Assembly: GCF_003583935.1 (NCBI RefSeq) | Contig: NZ_QYRN01000014.1 | Location: forward strand, 1-60,245 | Direction: 5' to 3' | Source: Aureimonas flava | GTDB taxonomy: Bacteria; Pseudomonadota; Alphaproteobacteria; Rhizobiales; Rhizobiaceae | Length of the DNA stretch: 60,245 nucleotides | Shown: in pieces, positions 9,814-23,037 of the stretch | Numbering within the stretch: position 1 is the stretch's first letter | Layout of the letters: each line of letters opens with the position of its first letter | Made by a program: the position numbers and the translations under genes | The notes under the pieces: model-generated | Databases searched by the model: none | Told to the model about the DNA's origin: nothing | The model's input: only the letters and a program-made list of their open reading frames with translations

Positions 9814-11319
9814 TCAATCGTCCTCGACGAAGACCTCCTTGCGCTTGTTGCGGATGGCGGGCAGCAGCGCGAAGATCACGCAGGCGAGGCCGAGCGCCAG
9901 GAGGGTGGCCGAGATCGGCCGCTCCAGGAACACCATCGCGTTGCCGCGCGAGATGATCATGGCGCGGCGCAGGTGCTCCTCCAGAAGCGGGCCCAGCACG
10001 AAGCCGAGGAGCAGCGGCGCGGGCTCGCAGCCGAGGCGGATCAGCACGTAGCCGAGGATGCCGAACACCCCGATCGCGTAGACGTCGAACGGGTTGCTGT
10101 TGATCGAATAGCAGCCGATGGCGGCGAACAGCACGATGGCGGGAAAGAGGATGCGGTAGGGGATCGTCAGCATCTTCACCCAGATGCCGATCAGGGGCAG
10201 GTTCAGGATGACCAGCAGCACGTTGCCGATCCACATCGAGGCGATGATGCCCCAGAACAGCGCGGGCTGGGTGTTGATGACGTTGGGTCCCGGCGTGATC
10301 CCCTGGAGAATGAACGCGCCCACGATCAGCGCCATCACCGGATGGGCCGGGATGCCGAGCGTCAGGAGCGGGATGAACGAGGTCTGGGCCGCCGCGTTGT
10401 TGGCGCTTTCCGGCCCGGCGACGCCCTGGATGGCGCCCTGGCCGAACTCGGACTTGTCGGCGGCGAGGTTCTTCTCCATCGAGTAGGAGGCGAAGGAGGA
10501 CAGGACGTGGCCCCCGCCCGGCAGGACGCCGAGGATGGAGCCGAGCGCCGTGCCGCGCACGACCGGGCCGGCGATGCGCCGGAAGTCCTCCCGCGTCAGC
10601 CACAGGCTGTCCACCTTCTTGACGCCGACTTCACGGGTCGTCTCGTTCTCGAGGTTGCGGAAGATCTCCGCCAGACCGAACACGCCGACGGCGATCGAGA
10701 CGAAGTTGATGCCCTGGTAGAGCTCGAGCTGGCCGAAGGTGAAGCGCGGCGTGCCGGTGTAGATGTCCTGGCCGACCGTGCCGAGGAGCAGGCCGAGCAC
10801 GATCATGGCGAGCGCCTTGACGATGGAGCCGTGGGCGAGCGAGATCGAGACCAGGAGCCCGAGCACGATCAGGGCGAAGTATTCGGGCGCGCCGAACTGG
10901 AGTGCGACGCGGGCCAGCGGCGGGGCCGCGATGGCGAGGAGCAGGGTCGCCACCGAGCCGGCGAAGAAGGAGCCGAGCGCCGCCGTCGCGAGGGCCGCGC
11001 CCGCCCGCCCCTTGCGCGCCATCTGGTAGCCGTCGATGGCCGTCACCGCCGAGGAGCTCTCGCCCGGCAGGTTGATCAGGATCGCGGTGGTGGAGCCGCC
11101 GTACTGGGCGCCGTAGTAGATGCCCGAGAGCATGATCAGCGCGGTGACCGGCGAGAAGGAGAAGGTGATCGGCAGCAGCATGGCGATGGTCGCCGTGGGG
11201 CCGATGCCGGGCAACACGCCGACCAGCGTGCCGAGCAGCACCCCGATGAAGCACCAGAAGACGTTGATGGGGGTGAGCGCCGTCTCGAAGCCGAGGGCGA
11301 GATGGGACAGGAGTTCCAT
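9814..11319 (-). CDS. tctA: Tripartite tricarboxylate transporter permease, large membrane subunit
   Basis: A 501-residue polytopic membrane protein, the normal TctA length. It begins MELLSHLALGFETALTPINV and carries the TctA landmarks GVLPGIGPTATIAMLLPITF, YYGAQYGGSTTAILINLPGE and GLLLGTVGQD. TctA forms the transport channel of the three-component TTT system, working with small subunit TctB and periplasmic binding protein TctC, usually for carboxylates such as citrate or tricarballylate. The start is 13 bp downstream of tctB. The substrate cannot be read from the sequence. Confidence 0.96.
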   Translation of the reverse strand: MELLSHLALGFETALTPINVFWCFIGVLLGTLVGVLPGIGPTATIAMLLPITFSFSPVTALIMLSGIYYGAQYGGSTTAILINLPGESSSAVTAIDGYQMARKGRAGAALATAALGSFFAGSVATLLLAIAAPPLARVALQFGAPEYFALIVLGLLVSISLAHGSIVKALAMIVLGLLLGTVGQDIYTGTPRFTFGQLELYQGINFVSIAVGVFGLAEIFRNLENETTREVGVKKVDSLWLTREDFRRIAGPVVRGTALGSILGVLPGGGHVLSSFASYSMEKNLAADKSEFGQGAIQGVAGPESANNAAAQTSFIPLLTLGIPAHPVMALIVGAFILQGITPGPNVINTQPALFWGIIASMWIGNVLLVILNLPLIGIWVKMLTIPYRILFPAIVLFAAIGCYSINSNPFDVYAIGVFGILGYVLIRLGCEPAPLLLGFVLGPLLEEHLRRAMIISRGNAMVFLERPISATLLALGLACVIFALLPAIRNKRKEVFVEDD

Positions 11320-11332
11320 GGATCCGCGCGCC

Positions 11333-11806
11333 TCAGGAGAAGGTCAGGAGGGGGCCGAAGGTCGGCAGGGTGATGCCGAGCCCCACCTTGAAGACCAGCC
11401 AGCAAAGGGCCGACATGCTGACGGCGATGGTGAGCGACGAGAGGATGGAGTTGCGCGCCGAGGCGAGCGCCACGATCGCGGTTCCCAGGAACACCACGGG
11501 CACGAGGCCGAGGGCGGCGCCGAACTCGCCGAAGATCGCAAGGGCCGAAAGGATCAGGACGATCCCCTTCCACGGGATCGGCGTCTTCTCGACCTGCTCG
11601 TTCTTCTTCATGCCGGCCAGGATCACCAGGACGCCGAACAGGGCGAGGAGGATCGCCAGCGTCATCGGGATGAAGCCCGGTCCCATGCGGATCGCGCGGC
11701 CCATGTCGTAGTTCGACGCTTCCCAGCCGAAGCCCGCCGCGAGCGCGATGAAGATCAGCCCCGCCAGAAGGTCGCGGCGCGATTTCACGCCTTCGGATGC
11801 ATGCAT
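11333..11806 (-). CDS. tctB: Tripartite tricarboxylate transporter small membrane subunit
   Basis: A 157-residue protein with four hydrophobic segments, as expected for TctB: LLAGLIFIALAAGFGWEAS, FIPMTLAILLALFGVLVILAG, a middle pair around ALAIFGEFGAALGLVPVVFL, and a last helix near the C terminus. The GPGFIPM motif between the first two helices is typical. The ATG at 11806 (MHASEGVKSRRD) is chosen because it opens directly before the first helix; a GTG at 11833 would add nine residues. It sits between tctC (90 bp upstream) and tctA (13 bp downstream). Confidence 0.9.
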   Translation of the reverse strand: MHASEGVKSRRDLLAGLIFIALAAGFGWEASNYDMGRAIRMGPGFIPMTLAILLALFGVLVILAGMKKNEQVEKTPIPWKGIVLILSALAIFGEFGAALGLVPVVFLGTAIVALASARNSILSSLTIAVSMSALCWLVFKVGLGITLPTFGPLLTFS

Positions 11807-11896
11807 GTGGATTGGCCCCCAACCAACTGGCACTGGACGAACCGGCCGGAAGCGCGAGCCCCGGCCGGTCGATATCTCGTCAGGCGGATGCGACGG

Positions 11897-13567: not shown

Positions 13568-13703
13568 GGGACACCTTTCTACGCAAGCGTTCGTCGGCGG
13601 CCTTCCGGCGCGCTCCAGTTTCGAATATCGCGATGAAGCGGGATGAACTGGCACCGCGCGAGCGGCGCAGGGCCCAAGCGTCCGGCCATCTTTCGACCGC
13701 TTG

Positions 13704-13732
13704 GATATGCCCGTGCCGAACGGAAAAGGCAA
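13704..13732 (-). promoter_or_regulatory. Candidate promoter of the cold-shock gene
   Basis: On the minus strand, TTGCCT (-35) and CATATC (-10) are separated by 17 bp. Transcription from here would give a leader of about 130 nt before the csp ATG, like other csp mRNAs. The -10 match is only partial. I see nothing else in the remainder of the 395-bp gap to the GH15 gene (13568-13962). Confidence 0.35.
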
Positions 13733-13962
13733 GTCGGCGTGACATATTTCCCGCAGCGGCGCGCCGGCCCACCGCCACCGTGCGCCCGTGTGCCGCAGGA
13801 TCTTGTTTCGCCGCCCATGCATTTGCCCGGGATGTTGGATCTGTCTCGCTCCGTTCGCCTCCGGCGATCTCATCGAACCAGCTCCGGGCCCGTCGGCGCA
13901 CGCCGCGCCGTGGATCCGGTCGGGTCGACCCGCGTTCTCACATCTTCGCGATCGGAGGCGTC

Positions 13963-15780
13963 ATGCTGAATTGGGTGAGACCGGCACAGGATCCGGGTGT
14001 GGAACGGCCCGGACGGCCGAGCGCGCTGCCGCTCGAGTCCTATGCCGCGCTGGGCGACGGGCGCAGCGTCGCGCTGGTGGGGCTCGACGGGTCGATCGAC
14101 TGGTGGTGCGTCCCCAACATGAATTCGGCGCCGATGCTGGACCGTATCCTTGACGAGCGGCGCGGGGGCTTCTTCACGCTGACGCCCCGGGGCGAGTTCA
14201 CGTCGCACCGCGCCTACCGGCCCGGGTCCAACGTGCTGGAGACCGTGTTCGAGACGAGCACCGGCCGCGCGCGTCTGGTGGAGGCGCTGAACAGCGGCTC
14301 GGGCGGGCGCCTGCCCTGGTGCGAACTGGCGCGCCGGATCGAGGGGCTCGAGGGCGAGGTGACCTTCGAGATGCGCCTCGTGTTCGGCACCCAGGCCGAC
14401 ACGATCTGTCCGTTCCTCTACACCAACGCCAACGCCACGACCTTCCACGCCGGCTCGGTGATCGGCCTCCTGCGCTACAGCGACGGCGTGCGGATCGAGG
14501 AGGAGGGCGACGGCGAGATCCGAGGCGTGGTCGGCGTGCGGGCCGGCGGGCGCGAACTCGTCGCCATCCTGGCCGGCGAGAACGAGCCGCTGGTGGTGGA
14601 GTCCCCCGAGGTCATCGACGCACGCATCGACGTCACGCACGAGGAATGGCGCCAATGGTGCGCCGGGATCCGCTTCCAGGGATCCTATCGCGACGCGGTG
14701 ATCCGCAGCGCCCTGGCGCTGAAGCTCCTCCTGTACTCTCCGACGGGGGCGATCGCCGCCGCCGCGACCTGCTCGCTGCCCGAAGGCATCGGCGGCGAGA
14801 AGAACTACGACTACCGCTACGCATGGGTGCGCGACGCATCGTATACGATCAAGGCGTTCCTGCGCATCGGCGCGGCGGCCGAGGCGAAGGGCGCCTTCAC
14901 CTGGCTCATCAAGCGCCTTGCCGAGCACGGCGCCCTGGTCTGCTACACGCTGGAGGGCGGCGTGCTGGGCGAGGAGGTCGAGATCGACCTGCCGGGCTAT
15001 CGCGGCAGCCGTCCGGTGCGGCGCGGCAACCAGGCGGCCGGGCAGCACCAGCACGGGATCTACGGCGACATCTTCGAGACCGCGGCCCGCTTCGTCGCCG
15101 GCGGGAACGTCCTCGACCCGCACAGCGCCTCGGTCCTCGCGGCCGTCGCCGACCGCTGCGCGGAGACCTGGCGCCAGCCCGATTCCGGCATCTGGGAGCT
15201 GTCGGAGCGGGGCCACTACACGATGTCGAAGATCAGCGCGTGGCAGGCCCTGGCGCGGGCGGTGGAGCTGGCCGACGGCGGCCATGTGCCCGCCACCTGC
15301 CGGGACCGATGGGCACGCTCGCGCGACCGGATCGCCGAATGGGTCGACGCCAACTGCTGGTCCGAGGAGCAGCAGGCCTATGTCATGGTGCCGGGCGGCG
15401 ACAAGCTCGACGCCTCGCTTGCGCTCGCGGTTCGCTTCGGCTTCGACGGGCGCGATCGGCTGGAGAAGACGCTTCGCGCACTGGACGACCGGCTCGGGCG
15501 CGGCCTCTTCCACTATCGCTACCACGGGGTCGAGAACGACGAGGGCTGCTTCCTCGCCTGCACCTTCTGGATCATCGAGGGCCTGGCGCTGCTCGGCCAC
15601 CGCGACGAGGCGCGCCTGCGTTTCGACGAGGTGATGGCGGCGCTGGATACGCGGGGCGCCGGCATCCTCGCCGAGATGGTGGATCCGGACACCTTGGCGT
15701 TCCTGGGCAACATGCCGCAGGGCCTCAGCCATCTGGCGCTGATCCAGACCGCCGCCACCGTGGACGGATGCCCCTTGTAG
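13963..15780 (+). CDS. Glycoside hydrolase family 15 protein (glucoamylase/trehalase-like)
   Basis: A 605-residue cytosolic protein without a signal peptide. The N-terminal beta domain contains LESYAALGDGRSVALVGLDG and SIDWWCVP, typical of bacterial GH15. The (alpha/alpha)6 barrel follows, with GEKNYDYRYAWVRDAS at about residues 276-291, HQHGIYGDIFETA, SGIWELSERGHYTMSK (a candidate acid Glu) and DEGCFLACTFWIIEG. Such enzymes hydrolyse trehalose, or alpha-1,4/1,6-glucosidic bonds of maltodextrin, by inversion. The ATG at 13963 follows GGAGG; upstream in-frame sequence is not family-like. No trehalose synthesis genes adjoin, so the substrate remains open. Confidence 0.9.
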   Translation: MLNWVRPAQDPGVERPGRPSALPLESYAALGDGRSVALVGLDGSIDWWCVPNMNSAPMLDRILDERRGGFFTLTPRGEFTSHRAYRPGSNVLETVFETSTGRARLVEALNSGSGGRLPWCELARRIEGLEGEVTFEMRLVFGTQADTICPFLYTNANATTFHAGSVIGLLRYSDGVRIEEEGDGEIRGVVGVRAGGRELVAILAGENEPLVVESPEVIDARIDVTHEEWRQWCAGIRFQGSYRDAVIRSALALKLLLYSPTGAIAAAATCSLPEGIGGEKNYDYRYAWVRDASYTIKAFLRIGAAAEAKGAFTWLIKRLAEHGALVCYTLEGGVLGEEVEIDLPGYRGSRPVRRGNQAAGQHQHGIYGDIFETAARFVAGGNVLDPHSASVLAAVADRCAETWRQPDSGIWELSERGHYTMSKISAWQALARAVELADGGHVPATCRDRWARSRDRIAEWVDANCWSEEQQAYVMVPGGDKLDASLALAVRFGFDGRDRLEKTLRALDDRLGRGLFHYRYHGVENDEGCFLACTFWIIEGLALLGHRDEARLRFDEVMAALDTRGAGILAEMVDPDTLAFLGNMPQGLSHLALIQTAATVDGCPL

Positions 15781-15801: not shown

Positions 15802-17127
15802 TCAGCCGCCGTCGCGAACGCGCGAAAAATAGTCGTCGTCGCCGACCTGCCCGCCCTTCAGCGCGATCTCCAGCCCGTCGAAGGCGGGATCGTCGCTGTG
15901 GGCGAGGGCCACGGGCGAGCCCGGCGTGTCCGGCAGCGGCAGGCGGGTGGTCAGCGCATGCACGGCGAGCTGGCGCAGCGCGTGGCTCGACGTGTCGCCG
16001 CCCGCGATCACCGCACGACCGAGCCCGAGGCGACGAACGAGCCCGGCCTGGAGGCGCCCGAGCCCCCGGCCGATCGCGTGGCGTGCCCCAGCCGTATCCG
16101 AAAGCGCGGCGCCGAGATCGCTGTCCGGCCCCATCGCCGTGTGCACGACGACCGAGCGTCCCGCGTGCAAGGCGGCCTCGGCTCGTGCCGAAACCGCCTC
16201 GGTCGCCGCCGTGTCGCCCGCGACGAGGGCCCGGGGATCGAGGGCGATCGTCTCGAATCCGTTCGCGCCGGCATGGCGGATCTGCCGCTCGGTGGTGGGC
16301 GAGCAGCTTCCCGACACCACGCTGATGCGGCCCGCCGCGGGAAGCGGCGCGAAGGCGGCGGGCGCGCCGATGCGCCCCGTCCGCGCCCAATGCGCCGTGA
16401 GGGCGTATTCGACGCCGGACGAGCCCACCGTGAAGCGGCAGCCGGCCTCGGCCAGCCGCTCCAGCTGCCGGCCGGCGGCCTCCTGCGTCTCCCCGTTCAG
16501 GACGTCGACGAGCACGAGGCCGGGATCGGCGGCCAGGATCGCGTCGAGCCGCGCGTCGGCATCCGGCGAACACAGCGCCAGTTGGTCGAGAAGCGCGACG
16601 TCGAGGGACGTCTGCCCGGCGAGGTGCAGGCGAAGGTCCGCCTCGCGCATCGGGGTCACGGGGTGGCGGCTCATCACCGGGTGGCGGTCGATCCGGAAGG
16701 TCTCGCCCCGGAACCGGGCGAACAGCGTTCCGAAGGCGGTCCAGCGGCCGAGCTGCGGCGCGCCGACCAGCAGCGGCACCGGGCGCTCGCCGAACACCGC
16801 CCGGCCGATCTCGGCGGCCCGCCCGATGGATCCGACGCCGGGGCTTGAATCGAAGGTCGAGCAGACCTTGTAGTGGGTGATCGCGGCGCCGCGTGCCGCC
16901 AGCCACCGGAACGCGTCGGGCAGGTTCCGGTCCATCCAGTCCGGCGTCTCGCTGCGGCTGGTGCCGGCAAGGCCGATCGCGGCCGCGCCGGCGAACCGCG
17001 CGAGTTGCGCGTCCGTCGGCACGTCGGTGAACAGCACCGTCTCGATGCCGCGCATGGCGAGGGATTCCATGACGTCGGTGGAGCCGGTGAGGTCGTCGCC
17101 GTAGAAGGCGAGAAGCGGCGTCGTCAT
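15802..17127 (-). CDS. oiaK: Four-carbon acid sugar kinase family protein, probable 3-oxo-isoapionate kinase
   Basis: A 441-residue DUF1537-family kinase. The N-terminal substrate domain starts MTTPLLAFYGDDLTGSTDVM, and the C-terminal nucleotide-binding domain has GGDTSSHALRQL and GLEIALKGGQVGDDDYF. In D-apiose degradation OiaK phosphorylates 3-oxo-isoapionate at O4. That specificity is inferred from the neighbours: it begins 4 bp after a RuBisCO-like protein gene in the same operon, and apsD, apnL and apnO lie just beyond the GntR gene. Other DUF1537 members act on erythronate, threonate or 3-oxo-tetronates. The stop codon lies inside a perfect 8-bp hairpin (15794-15812), with GH15 converging. 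Confidence 0.8.
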   Translation of the reverse strand: MTTPLLAFYGDDLTGSTDVMESLAMRGIETVLFTDVPTDAQLARFAGAAAIGLAGTSRSETPDWMDRNLPDAFRWLAARGAAITHYKVCSTFDSSPGVGSIGRAAEIGRAVFGERPVPLLVGAPQLGRWTAFGTLFARFRGETFRIDRHPVMSRHPVTPMREADLRLHLAGQTSLDVALLDQLALCSPDADARLDAILAADPGLVLVDVLNGETQEAAGRQLERLAEAGCRFTVGSSGVEYALTAHWARTGRIGAPAAFAPLPAAGRISVVSGSCSPTTERQIRHAGANGFETIALDPRALVAGDTAATEAVSARAEAALHAGRSVVVHTAMGPDSDLGAALSDTAGARHAIGRGLGRLQAGLVRRLGLGRAVIAGGDTSSHALRQLAVHALTTRLPLPDTPGSPVALAHSDDPAFDGLEIALKGGQVGDDDYFSRVRDGG

Positions 17128-17131
17128 CGGC

Positions 17132-18409
17132 TCAGGCTCCCTTGGCGTCCGCTCCGCCGAACGCTTCGAGCGAGGCGGCGAGTTCGGGATGGTCGGCGGC
17201 ATGGGCGGCGAGGTCGATGCCCGCGACCGCCGCCTCCCAGGCCTGCCGAACGGCGCGCACGCCGGCCGCCGGCCCCATCGGATGGCTGACCACCCCGCCG
17301 CCGCACAGGTACAGGAGGTCGGTGGATCGCACGGCGGCATAGGTCGCGGGCGCCTGTCCGCCCCATTGGCCGGAGCCGACCACCGGCAGGGGGCGGTCGT
17401 CCGGGCGGAACAGCGGCCGGCGCAAGGCGTGGTAGGAGCGCAGGAAGGACGCGTCCGGCTCCCAATATTTCGCCGCGATGCCGTTGATCTGGAACTGGTC
17501 GACGCCGAGCAGGCGCCAGAAGGTCTGGTAGACCGAGAAGTCGAGGCCCAGCGAGGGGTGCCGCGTGAGGATGTCCCAGCCGTTGCGGTGGGCGTGCAGC
17601 ACGAGGCCGGACCGGCGGCGCAGGAAGGCCATGGCGCCCATGCCGATCGAGTTGATGTTGACCACCGCCGCGTTGCCGCCCGCCGCCAGCACGAGGTCGT
17701 GGTTGCGCATCATCTCGTCGGGATCGGTGGCGGTGATGCCGAAGGCGACCATCACCTTCTTGCCGGTCCGCTGCTCGTGGTCCAGCACCACGGGCATGAT
17801 CGCCTTCACCCGCTCGGCGAGCGGCGAATAGGCCGGGCTCATCAGCTTCTCGTCGTCCTTGATGAAGTCGACGCCGGCCTCCACCAGCTCGCGCACCATC
17901 GCCGCGCTTTCGGGCGGGCGCAGGCCGAGCGCCGGCTTGACGATCGTGCCGACGATCGGCCGGCCGGACACCCCTGTGAGCCGCTTCGACCCCTCGATGC
18001 CGAACTGCGGGCCGGGCCAGGCCCTGCCGAAGGCGTCCGGCAGGGTCAGTCCGGTGACGCGGATGCCGCTGAAGCCCTTGATCGAGAACGTGCCGCCGAT
18101 GGCGATGGTCATCAGGGCGGCGAGGTCGGTGCCGACCGCCTCCATGGGAAAGGCGATGTCCGCCTCGCCGCAGTTGAACGAGCGGGGCTCGGCAAGGTCG
18201 TCGTGGGTGCGCCCGAAGGCGGGCTCGGCGACCGGCTCCAGCATGCGCACGTCGACGACGCGGGCGGCCACGCGCGCCTTGAGCTCCGGCGTCTCGCCGG
18301 GAAGCGGCACGAAGGTTCCGGTGGACTGATCGCTGGCGATCTTGCGGGCGAGCCCCTCGACGCTGCCCGGCGTCTCGATCCGATAGGTCAGGACGATGTC
18401 GTCGCTCAT
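17132..18409 (-). CDS. RuBisCO-like protein, probable 3-oxo-isoapionate-4-phosphate decarboxylase or transcarboxylase/hydrolase
   Basis: A 425-residue RuBisCO-superfamily protein. The metal-site motif is intact: DFIKDDEKL carries Lys184 (carbamylated in RuBisCO), Asp186 and Glu187. Also kept are Lys158 (TIVKPALGL), His272-His274-Arg275 (LHAHR), a loop-6-like Lys314 (IAAKYWEP), Ser346-Gly347 and the GGG phosphate loop at 370-372. The RuBisCO residues equivalent to Lys177 and His327 appear replaced, so carbon fixation is not expected. Co-occurrence with oiaK and apnO points to apiose catabolism. There OiaX decarboxylates 3-oxo-isoapionate 4-phosphate and OiaT cleaves it to 3-phosphoglycerate and glycolate; which applies here is unresolved. 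First gene of its operon. Confidence 0.86.
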   Translation of the reverse strand: MSDDIVLTYRIETPGSVEGLARKIASDQSTGTFVPLPGETPELKARVAARVVDVRMLEPVAEPAFGRTHDDLAEPRSFNCGEADIAFPMEAVGTDLAALMTIAIGGTFSIKGFSGIRVTGLTLPDAFGRAWPGPQFGIEGSKRLTGVSGRPIVGTIVKPALGLRPPESAAMVRELVEAGVDFIKDDEKLMSPAYSPLAERVKAIMPVVLDHEQRTGKKVMVAFGITATDPDEMMRNHDLVLAAGGNAAVVNINSIGMGAMAFLRRRSGLVLHAHRNGWDILTRHPSLGLDFSVYQTFWRLLGVDQFQINGIAAKYWEPDASFLRSYHALRRPLFRPDDRPLPVVGSGQWGGQAPATYAAVRSTDLLYLCGGGVVSHPMGPAAGVRAVRQAWEAAVAGIDLAAHAADHPELAASLEAFGGADAKGA

Positions 18410-18458
18410 GGGGGAGATGTCCTGCGAAGGCTGGAGAGAAGACGCGGGCGCCCGGCGT

Positions 18459-18481
18459 CTGGTATCGTCGCCATACCAGTT
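18459..18481. promoter_or_regulatory. Inverted-repeat operator between the RuBisCO-like gene and gntR
   Basis: A perfect 7-bp inverted repeat, CTGGTAT-N7-ATACCAG (18459-18479), lies between the divergent RuBisCO-like gene and the GntR gene. Read on the minus strand with flanking bases it contains AACTGGTATG, found again in front of apnO. The GGT...ACC symmetry fits GntR/FCD operators. It lies 50-72 bp from the RuBisCO-like start and 52-74 bp from gntR, so one repressor could control both directions. Confidence 0.6.
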
Positions 18482-18532
18482 CGGACGCGTCGGTTCCCCG
18501 ACGCGCGCCGTTCGCCAGCGGGAACGTCAGCC

Positions 18533-19246
18533 ATGGTGCAGCCGAGCGAGCCGATCGTCCGCCGCAAGCTCTCGACCGAGGTGTACGAGCGCCTCAAGGC
18601 GATGATCACCACGGGCGAGCTGCGGCCGGGCGACCAGATGCCCTCCGAGCGCGAGCTGATGGAGCGTTTCGGCGTCGGGCGGCCGGCGATCCGAGAGGCG
18701 ATGCAGGCGCTGGGCGGCATGGGGCTGCTCGCCATCTCGCACGGCGAGCGGGCCCGGGTGCTGAGCCTGACGCCCCGCTCGCTCTTCGGCCAGGTCGACC
18801 GGGCGGCCGAGATCATGCTCACCACCTCGCCCGGCGCCTTGGACCACCTCAAGGAGGCCCGCATCTTCTTCGAGCGGGGCATCGTGCGCCAGGCGGCCGA
18901 GCGGGCCGGGCCGGCCGACGTCGCGGCGCTCGGCGCGCTTCTGGCCGAGCAGCGTGCCGCGCTCGGCGACCCCGACCGCTTCATCCGCACCGACATGCGC
19001 TTCCACGCCCGCATCGCGGCGGTGCCGGGCAACCCGATCTTCGAGGCGGTGGCCGAATCCATGCTCGGCTGGCTGCGGCAGTACCACAACGAGCTGCTGA
19101 TCTGGAGCGGCAAGGAGAACGTCACGCTCCTGGAGCACGAGGAGATCCTCCAGTGCATCGCCGACCGCGATCCCGCTGCGGCGGAAGCGTCGATGGTGCG
19201 CCACCTGGAGCGCTCGCGCGAGCTCTACCGGCATCAGGGCGCCTGA
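18533..19246 (+). CDS. GntR family regulator, FadR/FCD subfamily (probable repressor of the apiose locus)
   Basis: A 237-residue regulator. The winged-helix domain (LSTEVYERLKAMITTGELRP, MPSERELMERFGVGRPAIRE) is followed by a helical FCD effector domain whose Asp and His metal or ligand positions are visible (TDMRFHARIA, EHEEILQCIA, MVRHLERS). It is divergent from the RuBisCO-like gene and converges on apnL, overlapping its end by 13 bp, so it sits between the two catabolic operons. Control of those operons, with a pathway acid as inducer, is inferred from location and from the shared CTGGTAT repeats. The ATG at 18533 gives a normal family N-terminus. Confidence 0.9.
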   Translation: MVQPSEPIVRRKLSTEVYERLKAMITTGELRPGDQMPSERELMERFGVGRPAIREAMQALGGMGLLAISHGERARVLSLTPRSLFGQVDRAAEIMLTTSPGALDHLKEARIFFERGIVRQAAERAGPADVAALGALLAEQRAALGDPDRFIRTDMRFHARIAAVPGNPIFEAVAESMLGWLRQYHNELLIWSGKENVTLLEHEEILQCIADRDPAAAEASMVRHLERSRELYRHQGA

Positions 19247-21165
19247 GGCGCGACGATCCGCGCCACCGCATGGGGCGGCAGCCGGAGCCGCTCGCCCGCC
19301 GGCCGCTCGGGCGGCAGGTTGCCGCCGGACGCCGCGTCGAAGGCCGCCTCGTCCAGAAGCGAGACGGTAGCGCCCGGTCCGACGCCTTCCACGGTCGCCT
19401 CCTGCGGCTCGGGCGTCAGGTTGGCGAGCCAGAGCTCCAGCCGCCCGTCGGCGCGCCGCACCGCGAACCCGTCCACCGCGCCCGGCCGCGCGGAGCGGAG
19501 CTCCAGGCGCCGGGCGCCGCCGAGCGCCGCCAGGCCCTTGGCCACGTGATAGGCCGGCGCCGTGCGCCCCTCGGCCGGCAGCAGGCCGCGCGGGCCGGCA
19601 AGGCTTGCGCCCGTCCAGGCCTCGACGCCCGAGCCCGCCAGCCGCGCGGCATAGCCCACGAGGAAGGCCGCGCCGAACAGGCCGCGCGCGCGCGGATCGT
19701 CGTGCGCCATGGGAACGCGCCGGCCGTCCGGGTTCGGCATGGTGCGCGAGCCGTAGGGGTTCTGCCGCATGCCGATCGTGGTGGGCCCGAGACGGTAAGG
19801 CTTGGCGCCCACGAAGGCGCGGGTGGAGCGCGTGATGAAGGGGATCGCCTCCAGCGTCTGCATCACCGACAGGTCGTCCGCCGCGTGGACGATGGGATTG
19901 GTGGCATGGGTGACGAAGTCGAGCCCGTCCAGCGGCACGCGCTTGCGGTTCAGCTCGGTGAAGTAGCTGAGCATGCCGCCGCCGAGCCGGGCGCGCGGAA
20001 AGGCTGCGCGCGCGGCGCGATAGACCTCCTCCAGCGGCGGACAGGCCGGCCAGGCGCTGCCCGGCGGGGTGGACCGGCGATCCGCGGCCGGGCCGACCAC
20101 CACGGTCTGTGGCGCGAGGCCCGAGGCCCGCACGAGGTGTGCCGCGCGCCCCGCCTCGTCGGCCGGCGCGTCCCGGTCGGGCAGAACGAGCTCCAGCGCG
20201 CGCTCGGCCTCCGGCAGCAGGGCGGCGACGCGCGCGAACGCGGCGAGCGCCGCCTCGCCGTGTCCGGCGAGCGGATCGAAATGGAACAGGAGGAAGGCCG
20301 GCGCGAGGTCGCGCAGGCGATCCGGCCGCGCCAGCGCCGCCTCGGTCTCCTCCGGCGCGACGGCGAGGCCGAAGCGCGGCATCGGGTCGGGCAGGGGCGC
20401 ACCGATGCGCAGCGCCACGGGGCCGTCCGCCCCGTCTGCGCGTCCGGTCGCGCGCGTCTTGGGCGGGGCGCCCTCCACCGTCAGCCTCACCGACTGTCGA
20501 TCCGGGGTGCCGGCTTCCATCCGGTAGGGCCAGGGGCGCGCCAGGGGGCGCACATAGGTCTTGAAGGACGCGTCGGACCAGGCGCGCTGGTCCTCCATCT
20601 CGAAGGCGTCGCCCTCCATGCGGCAGGTGGCGCGCAGGCCCGGCGCCGGCTCGTGGGCCAGCGCGCGGATGTCCTGGAAGGGCTGCCAGGGCTCGATCAG
20701 GTCGGGAAAGCGCGCGTCCTCCACGCGCCCGTCCGTGTGCTCGACGCGCAGCGGCGTGCCGGCGACGCCCCGGATCGGATGCAGGACGCAGAAGCCGCAG
20801 CGGTTGGTCTCGAACGCCCGGTCGGGCCGGGCCTCGACGGCGAAGGCGAGCGTGCCGTCCGCCGTGCCCTCGATCAGGGCGCTATAGGCCAGCCGCGCCC
20901 CGTCCGGCGCCTCGATCTCGGCCCGGTAGCGGACGCGGAACCGCTCGTCGTCCTCCTCGACCTGCAAGTCCCGGATCGGCGGGTCGCAGGTGCCCCAGTC
21001 GCGGTCGCGCACCACGTAGGCCACGGCGCGCAGGATCTCGACGCCGGCGAAGGCGACGGTGCGCAGGTTGCCCGACACGAGGTCCGCTTCCAGGCGCCCC
21101 GCCCGCAGGCGGCGCGAGGCGGCCGGTTCCTCTCGCGTGCCGAAGAGCTTCAGCGCGTCGGCCAC
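19234..21165 (-). CDS. apnL: D-apionate lactonase
   Basis: A 643-residue protein, last gene of the apnO-apsD-apnL operon. It resembles ApnL in length and position: an N-terminal beta-rich domain (GNLRTVAFAGVEILRAVAYV, RDRDWGTC, ETNRCGFCVLHPI, FQDIRALAH), then a barrel-like part (GGGMLSYFTELNR, DGLDFVTHATNPIVHA, GPTTIGMRQNPYG). ApnL opens D-apionolactone to D-apionate. The GTG at 21165 was chosen because it follows the apsD stop by 2 bp with GAGG upstream; no ATG is available near the family N-terminus. The identification relies partly on context. Its 3' end overlaps the convergent gntR gene by 13 bp. Confidence 0.8.
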   Translation of the reverse strand: MADALKLFGTREEPAASRRLRAGRLEADLVSGNLRTVAFAGVEILRAVAYVVRDRDWGTCDPPIRDLQVEEDDERFRVRYRAEIEAPDGARLAYSALIEGTADGTLAFAVEARPDRAFETNRCGFCVLHPIRGVAGTPLRVEHTDGRVEDARFPDLIEPWQPFQDIRALAHEPAPGLRATCRMEGDAFEMEDQRAWSDASFKTYVRPLARPWPYRMEAGTPDRQSVRLTVEGAPPKTRATGRADGADGPVALRIGAPLPDPMPRFGLAVAPEETEAALARPDRLRDLAPAFLLFHFDPLAGHGEAALAAFARVAALLPEAERALELVLPDRDAPADEAGRAAHLVRASGLAPQTVVVGPAADRRSTPPGSAWPACPPLEEVYRAARAAFPRARLGGGMLSYFTELNRKRVPLDGLDFVTHATNPIVHAADDLSVMQTLEAIPFITRSTRAFVGAKPYRLGPTTIGMRQNPYGSRTMPNPDGRRVPMAHDDPRARGLFGAAFLVGYAARLAGSGVEAWTGASLAGPRGLLPAEGRTAPAYHVAKGLAALGGARRLELRSARPGAVDGFAVRRADGRLELWLANLTPEPQEATVEGVGPGATVSLLDEAAFDAASGGNLPPERPAGERLRLPPHAVARIVAPQAP

Positions 21166-21167
21166 GA

Positions 21168-22196
21168 TCAGACCTCGCGCGGGTCGAGGCTCGACCCGGC
21201 GGCGGCGCTCAGATAGGCCGCCTCCACCAGGGCGAGCGTCTTGAGGTTGTCGCGGCCCGACGTGTCGGGCTCGGTTCCCGCGCGCAGCGCCTGCGCCCAA
21301 TGCGCCTGGATCAGCGCGACGCTCTCCTGGATGTTGTGCCAGGGGCGCGAGGCCCAGGGCAGGAGCGGCGGCGAGACGTCCTCGTGCCGCGTGCCGTCCG
21401 GTCCCGTCACGGTCAGCCGGTAGCCTTCGTCGAGGCGGATCGTTCCCTCGGACCCGTCGATCTCGATCAAGGTCTGCGGGAACCGCTCGGTCTCCAGCCG
21501 GGTGGCGTAGGAGCAGTCCACCACGCTGGCGAAACCCGCCTCGTGGTCCAGGAGCATGGTGGCGACGTCCTCGCCCCGGATGCGCGGGTTGACGCGCCGG
21601 GTGCGGGCCGTGATCCGCGTGACGTCGCCGAACAGGAAGCGGGCGATGTCGAGCGCGTGGATGCCGAGGTCCTCGACGATGAACCGCTCGCCCTCGGCGA
21701 GATAGGGCTGGCCGGCATAGACGTCGTAGGCGGAGCGGAAGGACACGCGCCCGAAGAAGGGGGCACCGATCTCGCCAGAGGCGAGGCACCGGCGCACCGC
21801 CCGGATCGGCGACTGCCAGCGGAAGTTCTCGTGGACCATCAGCGGCACGCCCGCCCGCTCGCAGGCCTCCACCATGGCGCGCGCGTCGTCCATCGTCGGT
21901 GCGAAGGGCTTCTGGCAGATCGCGGGGATCGCCAGCGAGGCCGCCAGCTCGACCAGCGCGCGGTGGCTGGGGGCGGTGGTGGCGATGTCCACGAAGTCCG
22001 GCCGCACCTCCCGGAGCATGGCGGCGGCGTCCGTGAAGCGCGCGGCGACGGCGAAGCTCTCGCCCATGTCGTCGAGCCGCGCCGCGTCGCGGTCGCACAG
22101 GGCGACGATGGAGACGCCCGGAATGCCCGCCCAGGCATGCATCTGGTTGCGGGCGAAGAAGCCGCAGCCGATCAGGGCGCCGCGTAGCTCGCGCAT
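21168..22196 (-). CDS. apsD: D-apiose dehydrogenase (Gfo/Idh/MocA family)
   Basis: A 342-residue oxidoreductase. The N-terminal Rossmann fold begins MRELRGALIGCGFFARNQMH. The Gfo/Idh/MocA catalytic lysine is Lys96 in ICQKPFAP, and Asp176/His180 lie in VEDLGIHALDI. In the apiose pathway ApsD oxidises D-apiose to D-apionolactone with NAD+. The substrate is inferred from the neighbours, since this superfamily is broad. It lies 13 bp after apnO and 2 bp before apnL, so the three are translated from one message. Confidence 0.83.
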   Translation of the reverse strand: MRELRGALIGCGFFARNQMHAWAGIPGVSIVALCDRDAARLDDMGESFAVAARFTDAAAMLREVRPDFVDIATTAPSHRALVELAASLAIPAICQKPFAPTMDDARAMVEACERAGVPLMVHENFRWQSPIRAVRRCLASGEIGAPFFGRVSFRSAYDVYAGQPYLAEGERFIVEDLGIHALDIARFLFGDVTRITARTRRVNPRIRGEDVATMLLDHEAGFASVVDCSYATRLETERFPQTLIEIDGSEGTIRLDEGYRLTVTGPDGTRHEDVSPPLLPWASRPWHNIQESVALIQAHWAQALRAGTEPDTSGRDNLKTLALVEAAYLSAAAGSSLDPREV

Positions 22197-22209
22197 CTCG
22201 GCCCCCGCG

Positions 22210-23037
22210 TCAGGTGATGCGGCGGATGGAGGCCATCAGCTCGTCCGGCTCGAAGATGCGCTTCCAGTCGTCGCGCATCAGCGCCGGCTTGCCGAACTCG
22301 ATGGCCTTGTTGCACGCGTCCGAGAACACGCCGGGCGTCTCCTCGAAGATCACGGCGCCGAGGACGTTCATGTGGCCGAGCAGGAAGTCGCGCGCCGCCT
22401 CCCGCGGCACCCCCCGCGCCACGACCTCCTCCATCGCCTCGCGCATCACCACCAGGAGGCTCGCCGTCACCGTCTCCGAAAGGCCCGGCTCGAGCAGCGC
22501 CATCTGCTCCACCGTGATGCGGTGCGAGCGCATCACCGGCGCCCAGATCGCCCGCGCGATCTCCTCGCCCAGCGCGTAGTGCGCCTCCGGCCCTTGCATC
22601 AGGGCGGAGACGATGTGCTGCTTGGCGGCGACGCCGCCGAAGAAGTCGCGCTTGGCGGCAGGCTCGGTCTCGTCGTTGAAGATCGGCGGATGGCAGGGGT
22701 GGGTGACGAAGTAGGTGAGGTCTTCGCGCGCGGGCAGATGGCCGGCGAAGGGCGCGGCGGCGTCGAGGATCATCACCATCGTGCCCGGCCGCAGGCGCGC
22801 CTCGATGCCGGACAGGACCCGGCCGATCAGGGTGTCGGGCACGGCGAGGACGACCACTGCGGCGCCGTCCAGCGCGGCGTCCTCGTCCAGGCAGTCGACG
22901 CCGAGCTGCGCCTTCAGGCGCTCGCGGCCCGGCTCGGACCGCTCCACGTGGCGCACGTCGAAGCGCGACCCCTTGAGATTGCCGGCGAGGCGGGTGCCCA
23001 TCTTTCCGCCGGCCCCGAACAGGGCGATCGATGTCAT
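22210..23037 (-). CDS. apnO: D-apionate oxidoisomerase
   Basis: A 275-residue NAD-binding protein starting MTSIALFGAGGKMGTRLA, with a Rossmann glycine motif at residues 8-14. It has an all-helical C-terminal domain like 6-phosphogluconate dehydrogenase/ketol-acid reductoisomerase relatives (VTHPCHPPIFNDE, RSHRITVEQMALLEPGLSET). ApnO oxidises and rearranges D-apionate to 3-oxo-isoapionate. Recognition combines fold, length and synteny with apsD, apnL, a DUF1537 kinase and a RuBisCO-like protein. The ATG at 23037 has AAGGA at good distance. First gene of its operon; the operator candidate is 57 bp upstream. Confidence 0.83.
   Translation of the reverse strand: MTSIALFGAGGKMGTRLAGNLKGSRFDVRHVERSEPGRERLKAQLGVDCLDEDAALDGAAVVVLAVPDTLIGRVLSGIEARLRPGTMVMILDAAAPFAGHLPAREDLTYFVTHPCHPPIFNDETEPAAKRDFFGGVAAKQHIVSALMQGPEAHYALGEEIARAIWAPVMRSHRITVEQMALLEPGLSETVTASLLVVMREAMEEVVARGVPREAARDFLLGHMNVLGAVIFEETPGVFSDACNKAIEFGKPALMRDDWKRIFEPDELMASIRRIT

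Follow-up and report, generated by a model that had tools for sequence, protein, structure and literature searches.

Gene content of the locus

The window analyzed here is a stretch of 60,245 nucleotides from Aureimonas flava (NZ_QYRN01000014.1, labeled contig C5 in the 4.09-Mb, 26-contig genome), and the system in question is a six-gene cluster at positions 15802-23037 that very probably serves catabolism of D-apiose. An initial annotation had placed apsD, apnL, apnO, a DUF1537 kinase, a RuBisCO-like protein (RLP), and a GntR regulator together at this location, which agrees with the open reading frames found for all six genes and with the match of each to its expected family in Pfam or NCBIfam. 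The first group of genes, all on the minus strand, begins with apnO (22210-23037; PGDH_C, 249.7 bits), encoding a D-apionate oxidoisomerase-like protein that matched no specific NCBIfam model and is 72-91% identical (best tblastn piece) to its counterparts in OiaX loci L007-L086, where these were found. It is followed after 13 bp by apsD (21168-22196; GFO/IDH/MocA family in Pfam), whose D-apiose dehydrogenase-like product had no ApsD-specific NCBIfam match and shares 67% identity with the homolog adjoining OiaX in Rhizobium leguminosarum WSM1325. The D-apionolactonase gene apnL (19234 to about 21165) matches the NCBIfam ApnL model at 853.4 bits (cut-off, 750), and the junction sequence points to a GTG at 21165, 2 bp beyond the apsD stop, as its probable start.

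The second group, also on the minus strand, consists of the RLP gene oiaX (17132-18409; RuBisCO_large, 248 bits) and an oiaK-type DUF1537 kinase gene (15802-17127; SBD_N and NBD_C domains) whose start lies 4 bp beyond the stop of the RLP gene. Between the two groups, on the plus strand and divergent from the RLP gene, lies a gene for a GntR/FCD regulator of the NanR type (18533-19246; NF003011, NanR subfamily model, 326.7 bits against a cut-off of 260). This set of six genes is the same as that of other OiaX loci, surveyed here as the best 80 of 484 OiaX-like loci, several of them on short contigs.

Gene content, phylogeny, a residue signature, genome co-occurrence, and operator conservation together suggest that the cluster is very probably of the decarboxylating OiaX type, that isomerase, transketolase-like, and aldolase genes on contig C20 complete its route, and that the NanR-type regulator probably controls OiaX and OiaK; the catalytic steps and the regulation are all predicted from these observations. 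In the proposed route, ApsD would oxidize apiose, ApnL would open the lactone, ApnO would convert apionate to 3-oxo-isoapionate, OiaK would phosphorylate the latter, and the RLP would decarboxylate 3-oxo-isoapionate 4-phosphate to CO2 and an erythrulose phosphate. The unlinked LerI-type triose-phosphate isomerase family protein (TIM) and DerI of C20 would then take erythrulose phosphate to D-erythrose 4-phosphate, which the transketolase-like and aldolase gene products of C20 would pass to the pentose-phosphate pathway. The initial reading of the cluster as an apiose/apionate catabolic locus, with an RLP that has kept its metal-site residues, is supported, and its genes are probably used by a plant-associated bacterium for the plant sugar apiose.

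The pathway and its enzyme types are already published, and the locus is an ordinary further example, placed by comparison in the known OiaX branch of apiose catabolism. The 3-oxo-isoapionate-4-phosphate decarboxylase OiaX was reportedly assayed from Agrobacterium radiobacter K84 by Carter et al. in 2018. PMC6302742 attributes decarboxylation and transcarboxylation/hydrolysis to the RLPs from A. radiobacter K84 and Xanthobacter autotrophicus, wording that is read here as respective, with K84 having the decarboxylase (OiaX) and X. autotrophicus the transcarboxylase/hydrolase (OiaT). PMC11747546 describes growth on D-apiose by a member of the Rhodobacteraceae whose cluster bears the same five enzyme names in its annotation. 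A literature search returned no paper joining Aureimonas and apiose, and the papers found on apiose catabolism or RLPs do not name this lineage in their titles or the opening of their abstracts.

Class of the RuBisCO-like protein

The RLP, which is the only RuBisCO-family match in the whole genome and shares 92% identity with its counterpart in Aureimonas sp. Leaf324, scored 751.2 bits (750.9 in the genome search) on the NCBIfam OiaX equivalog model NF042437, exceeding the cut-off of 700. Three other RLPs of the OiaX clade defined below scored 759-790 bits on this model, and seven RLPs outside the clade remained under the cut-off at 353-501 bits; no OiaT model of NCBIfam was matched by the RLPs scanned. 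The 120 nearest proteins listed include 17 named OiaX by NCBI, 13 named as the decarboxylase by JGI, and none named as a transcarboxylase, all such names being transferred by homology. In addition, the RLP gene is adjoined by apsD, apnL, apnO, and the kinase gene.

Since NCBI files K84 as Rhizobium rhizogenes K84, R. rhizogenes proteins were used as proxies for the assayed OiaX in maximum-likelihood trees, the rows of which were selected by the authors from several hundred proteins and loci. In a 48-row tree, which had very long outgroup branches and drew a long-branch warning, the window RLP falls inside an 18-row clade (support, 100/100; stem, 1.3) that contains proteins of Aureimonas, two of R. 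rhizogenes, and others that are mostly from rhizobia. The clade was recovered with the same support and a stem of 1.4 in a 56-row tree, from which the two longest outgroups, form I RuBisCO and a Thiodictyon RLP, had been dropped and to which ten more RLPs had been added. Proteins named 3-oxoisoapionate-4-phosphate transcarboxylase/hydrolase (JGI), nine among 120 listed, were represented in the trees by five, which group apart from the OiaX clade with proteins of Ancylobacter and a Xanthobacteraceae isolate; the resulting 11-row OiaT-core group has support of 87/90 and 83/97 in the two trees, not starred, and is nested in a 16-row group (100/96) in the 48-row tree. Judged by these Xanthobacteraceae and named proxies, which stand in for the X. 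autotrophicus OiaT because its sequence did not appear among the protein and plasmid matches listed, the window RLP lies outside the OiaT clade. The phylogenetic placement that the initial annotation had recommended therefore assigns it, by proxies and in both trees, to OiaX. With OiaX, the window RLP shares the model, the clade, the signature residues discussed below, and the kind of gene neighbors; as a difference, its identity to the proteins of R. rhizogenes is about 72%. The non-OiaX RLPs compared are 38-47% identical to it, the values being lower still for the Thiodictyon RLP and form I RuBisCO.

That the RLP is a true RuBisCO or acts in methionine salvage like MtnW, enzymes with which it has its family and metal-site residues in common, is the least probable explanation, close to negligible: the RLP scored 135.9 bits against a cut-off of 409 and 91.8 bits against 513.6 on the NCBIfam MtnW models and 214.7 bits against 497.45 on the form III RuBisCO model, and the apiose genes lie alongside. 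Grouping with MtnW or another RLP clade, which the initial annotation had named as evidence that would count against it, was not seen, in trees that held no MtnW sequence.

The window RLP has the carbamate-type K184, D186/E187, K158, H274/R275, and a loop-6-like K314, and these residues are common to the OiaX, OiaT-side, and 3nwr-type rows compared. Because both sides keep them, the carbamate, metal-ligand, and loop-6 residues listed in the initial annotation do not discriminate between OiaX and OiaT and leave the reaction undecided. At forty alignment columns, the 18 OiaX rows all have one residue and the 11 OiaT-core rows all have another; the window RLP is one of the 18 and has the OiaX letters at these columns by construction. 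As an independent check, it was compared at the columns invariant in the other 17 OiaX rows, and it differs at a single column, with V153 in place of I.

Among the forty positions, D27, G106, Q305, and Q307 are present in 18 of 18 OiaX rows and are E, N, H, and H in all 11 OiaT-core and all 12 sister rows. They align with E63, N126, H327, and H329 of Cupriavidus necator form I RuBisCO, columns that we take to be those of E60, N123, H325, and H327 in spinach RuBisCO, where E60, N123, and H327 take part in catalysis. The E/N/H/H set may be dispensable where CO2 is only removed and may be indispensable to an enzyme that re-carboxylates and hydrolyzes; the D/G/Q/Q set would fit an OiaX that does not need re-carboxylation or hydration of its enediolate. 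The contrast, drawn in the present analysis, is suggested as a simple means of separating OiaX from OiaT-side RLPs in sequence data. Like the window, loci on the OiaT side combine an RLP with apsD, apnL, apnO, and a DUF1537 kinase, as in Microvirga (L100), but the RLP of that locus shares 45% identity with that of the window, belongs to a different clade, and keeps E/N/H/H.

The initial annotation had preferred a transcarboxylase/hydrolase that yields 3-phosphoglycerate and glycolate without a need for isomerases. The locus does lack isomerase genes, and a GlcD-like gene on C19 suggests that glycolate use is probably possible; however, the window RLP belongs to the OiaX clade and not to that of the transcarboxylase/hydrolase-named proteins, it has D, G, Q, and Q in place of the RuBisCO-like E, N, H, and H of OiaT-side relatives, and the genome does encode the isomerases, whose occurrence goes with that of OiaX (see below), making an OiaT-like reaction very unlikely. 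The search for glycolate oxidase, also recommended by the initial annotation, did return the GlcD-like gene, but at 531.7 bits against a cut-off of 567.9, and it is uninformative between the two branches. The most likely products of the RLP are an erythrulose phosphate and CO2.

Isomerases and their genomic distribution

The lerI and derI genes are missing from the window, as the initial annotation had stated: genome-wide searches with the TIM and RpiB families gave matches on C20 and C21 only, and not on C5. The single RpiB-family match (C20:39944-40366) is DerI by NF051858 (266.9 bits; cut-off, 240). Two TIM-family proteins were found, sharing 41% identity: one on C20, 3.4 kb from DerI, and one on C21, which directly precedes a 542-aa frame that is presumably pyrG, given its length and the gene order. 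Of 11 TIMs from OiaX loci, ten show 54.5-64% identity to the C20 TIM and 33-39% to the C21 TIM, and TIMs over the 81 genomes surveyed below split into two separate classes (identities of at least 54% versus at most 44%), so that the C20 protein is classed as LerI-type; it matched triose-phosphate isomerase models only and no LerI-specific NCBIfam model. Thus, the genome check recommended for lerI and derI located both, DerI exceeding its cut-off and a LerI-type TIM, on C20.

On C20, DerI and a SorC-type regulator are followed divergently by a transketolase-like frame, recognized from its translation and not by a model, the TIM, and a class II fructose-bisphosphate aldolase (593.9 bits; cut-off, 496.35). 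This order is kept in a genome of the same genus (L123), with identities of 89% for DerI, 93% for the TIM, and 97% for the aldolase. The arrangement recalls the erythritol module of Brucella, in which EryH and EryI are presumably of TIM and RpiB type. Two isomerases, EryH and EryI, there lead from erythritol to erythrose 4-phosphate, and transketolase, transaldolase, and Fba continue (PMC11508834; for the isomerase pair with transketolase and Fba, also PMC10190533). Unlike EryH and EryI, the C20 set is accompanied by a SorC-type regulator, the transketolase-like frame, and the class II aldolase; by analogy, these neighbors would fit a Brucella-like assimilation of erythrose 4-phosphate.

In the stretches fetched for the 80 OiaX-like loci, a TIM was found in 11, DerI in 13, both in 8, and either in 16, and none of the 15 Aureimonas-titled loci has a TIM or DerI. 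A survey of 81 related genomes from 80 genera, about one per genus, found OiaX above its cut-off in 15, DerI above its cut-off in 26, and a LerI-type TIM in 26. Both isomerases are encoded by all 15 OiaX genomes versus 10 of the 66 others (Fisher test, 4e-10, ignoring kinship beyond about one genome per genus). OiaX and DerI lie less than 10 kb apart in 3 of the 15 OiaX genomes and on different contigs of the draft assemblies in 10, and of the 25 genomes with both isomerases, 23 have the LerI-type TIM no more than 10 kb from DerI. Among eight genomes without OiaX whose best RLP scored 388-437 bits, one has DerI and none has a LerI-type TIM; these RLPs are of mixed types (3nwr-type and others by tree), so that the contrast is with non-OiaX RLPs and not with OiaT alone, and an apnO homolog stands beside the RLP in only one of them (G024, stretch fetched).

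Thus, across the genomes examined, OiaX is accompanied by the LerI/DerI pair at the level of the genome and mostly not of the operon, and the absence of isomerases from the locus is normal and no argument for OiaT. The initial inference that the missing genes favor an OiaT-like reaction did not hold up, given the pair on C20, its presence in 15 of 15 OiaX genomes, and the assignment to OiaX by tree and residues. More generally, an apiose cluster that lacks isomerase genes gives no guide to the reaction of its RLP.

Regulation, transport, and related loci

The 123-bp intergenic region between the RLP and GntR genes contains a candidate operator, CTGGTAT-N7-ATACCAG, at 18459-18479. Its exact pattern occurs once in the 4.09-Mb genome, with two more places at two mismatches and one place for a reversed control pattern; at up to three mismatches, the window has this single match, versus an average of 0.33 in shuffles. 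The exact 12-base operator core lies upstream of the RLP, at a distance of no more than about 200 bp, in 10 of the 15 Aureimonas-titled loci, and the GntR gene is located just upstream of, and divergent from, the RLP gene in 78 of the 80 loci (exceptions, L020 and L022). These positions suggest that the NanR-type regulator probably controls OiaX and OiaK through the candidate operator.

Several observations weigh against the assignment of the locus to OiaX-type apiose catabolism with a route completed on C20. The RLP was classified with database names and with proxies from the same species or family, which stood in for the assayed K84 and Xanthobacter enzymes. One TIM from an OiaX locus (L038) is equivocal, being 37% identical to the C20 TIM and 40% to the C21 TIM, and 10 of 66 non-OiaX genomes have both isomerases, suggesting that the C20 genes may serve tetritols too. 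The kinase scored 442.9 bits on the OiaK model NF042436, under the cut-off of 700, an ABC transporter of the apiose type was not found within the cluster, and OiaX-clade RLPs occur in two loci without apiose genes (L094 and L095), so that the clade may have more than one function. Finally, the operator was not found before apnO or elsewhere in the window, and its core gave no matches at up to three mismatches near the C20 isomerases; shared control of the upper locus and C20 is therefore not supported.

The kinase score, the lack of an adjoining apiose-type transporter, and the OiaX-named RLPs of L094 and L095 would also suit an RLP that decarboxylates another substrate, in a locus for a related branched sugar acid other than D-apiose. 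That explanation is marginally less probable again than an OiaT-like reaction: ApnL exceeds its equivalog cut-off, the six-gene set matches other OiaX loci, and the OiaK cut-off was reached by none of the 10 RLP-linked kinases scanned, the window kinase included (range, 197-575 bits). Kinases below the cut-off include those of apiose-type clusters L087, L090, L096, L100, and L104, with scores of 484 for R. leguminosarum WSM1325 and 575 for Microvirga, both from apiose-type clusters; the scan left out the Paraburkholderia kinase of L103, which is named OiaK in its record. The function of the window kinase as OiaK is assigned from gene context.

For the OiaX-type apiose route, it is tentatively proposed, with slightly less than even confidence, that the Aureimonas-like lineage organizes apiose use in two unlinked and separately controlled modules. 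The upper module would be governed by the NanR-type regulator and CTGGTAT-N7-ATACCAG, and the lower, a tetrulose-phosphate module that pairs DerI and a SorC-type regulator with divergent genes for transketolase, LerI, and fructose-bisphosphate aldolase, would sense a tetrulose phosphate and assimilate erythrose 4-phosphate via transketolase and sedoheptulose bisphosphate.

Unlike the OiaX cluster of WSM1325, the window genes form two groups without an adjacent ABC transporter. With the WSM1325 binding protein as query, the best homolog (about 51-52% identity) was found on C4. A SorC-type regulator, an FGGY kinase, and a match resembling DUF2291 (33%) occur there (L137) together with a ribose-type ABC system that shares about 50% identity with the OiaX-adjacent transporter of WSM1325; from this similarity, the C4 system is a candidate apiose or tetritol transporter. 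Within the window, TctA and TctB transporter genes were identified by model at 9814-11833, with a TctC-like frame next to them recognized by eye, and a glycosyl hydrolase family 15 gene (13633-15780, plus strand) lies between the Tct genes and the apiose cluster. Because TctA is present, at 89-96%, in only 3 of the 80 OiaX-like loci (L010, L011, and L016), no link between Tct and apiose is claimed.

Other RLP loci were encountered in the course of these comparisons. L094 and L095 are located on plasmids of Agrobacterium salinitolerans and Rhizobium phaseoli, and their RLPs are named OiaX in their records, that of L095 scoring 759 bits on the OiaX model. Their 17-kb stretches have no apnO, apsD, or apnL matches and a distant kinase (35-36%), with aldo/keto reductases, a 3-keto-5-aminohexanoate-cleavage-type protein, and a lactonase-like protein as neighbors, and these RLPs perhaps have a different substrate. 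Another genome of the genus (G079) has a second RLP, with 42% identity to that of the window, beside an apnO homolog (52%; L114), and the OiaX of this genome is on another contig. Lastly, pairs of an RLP and a DUF1537 kinase without apnO, apsD, or apnL matches in 17 kb each (L088, L089, L091, L092, L093, L099, and L102) were found on plasmids of Azospirillum, Chimaeribacter, Rhizobium, Rhodococcus, Natronosalvus, and Croceibacterium, and they likely represent RLP pathways for some further substrate.

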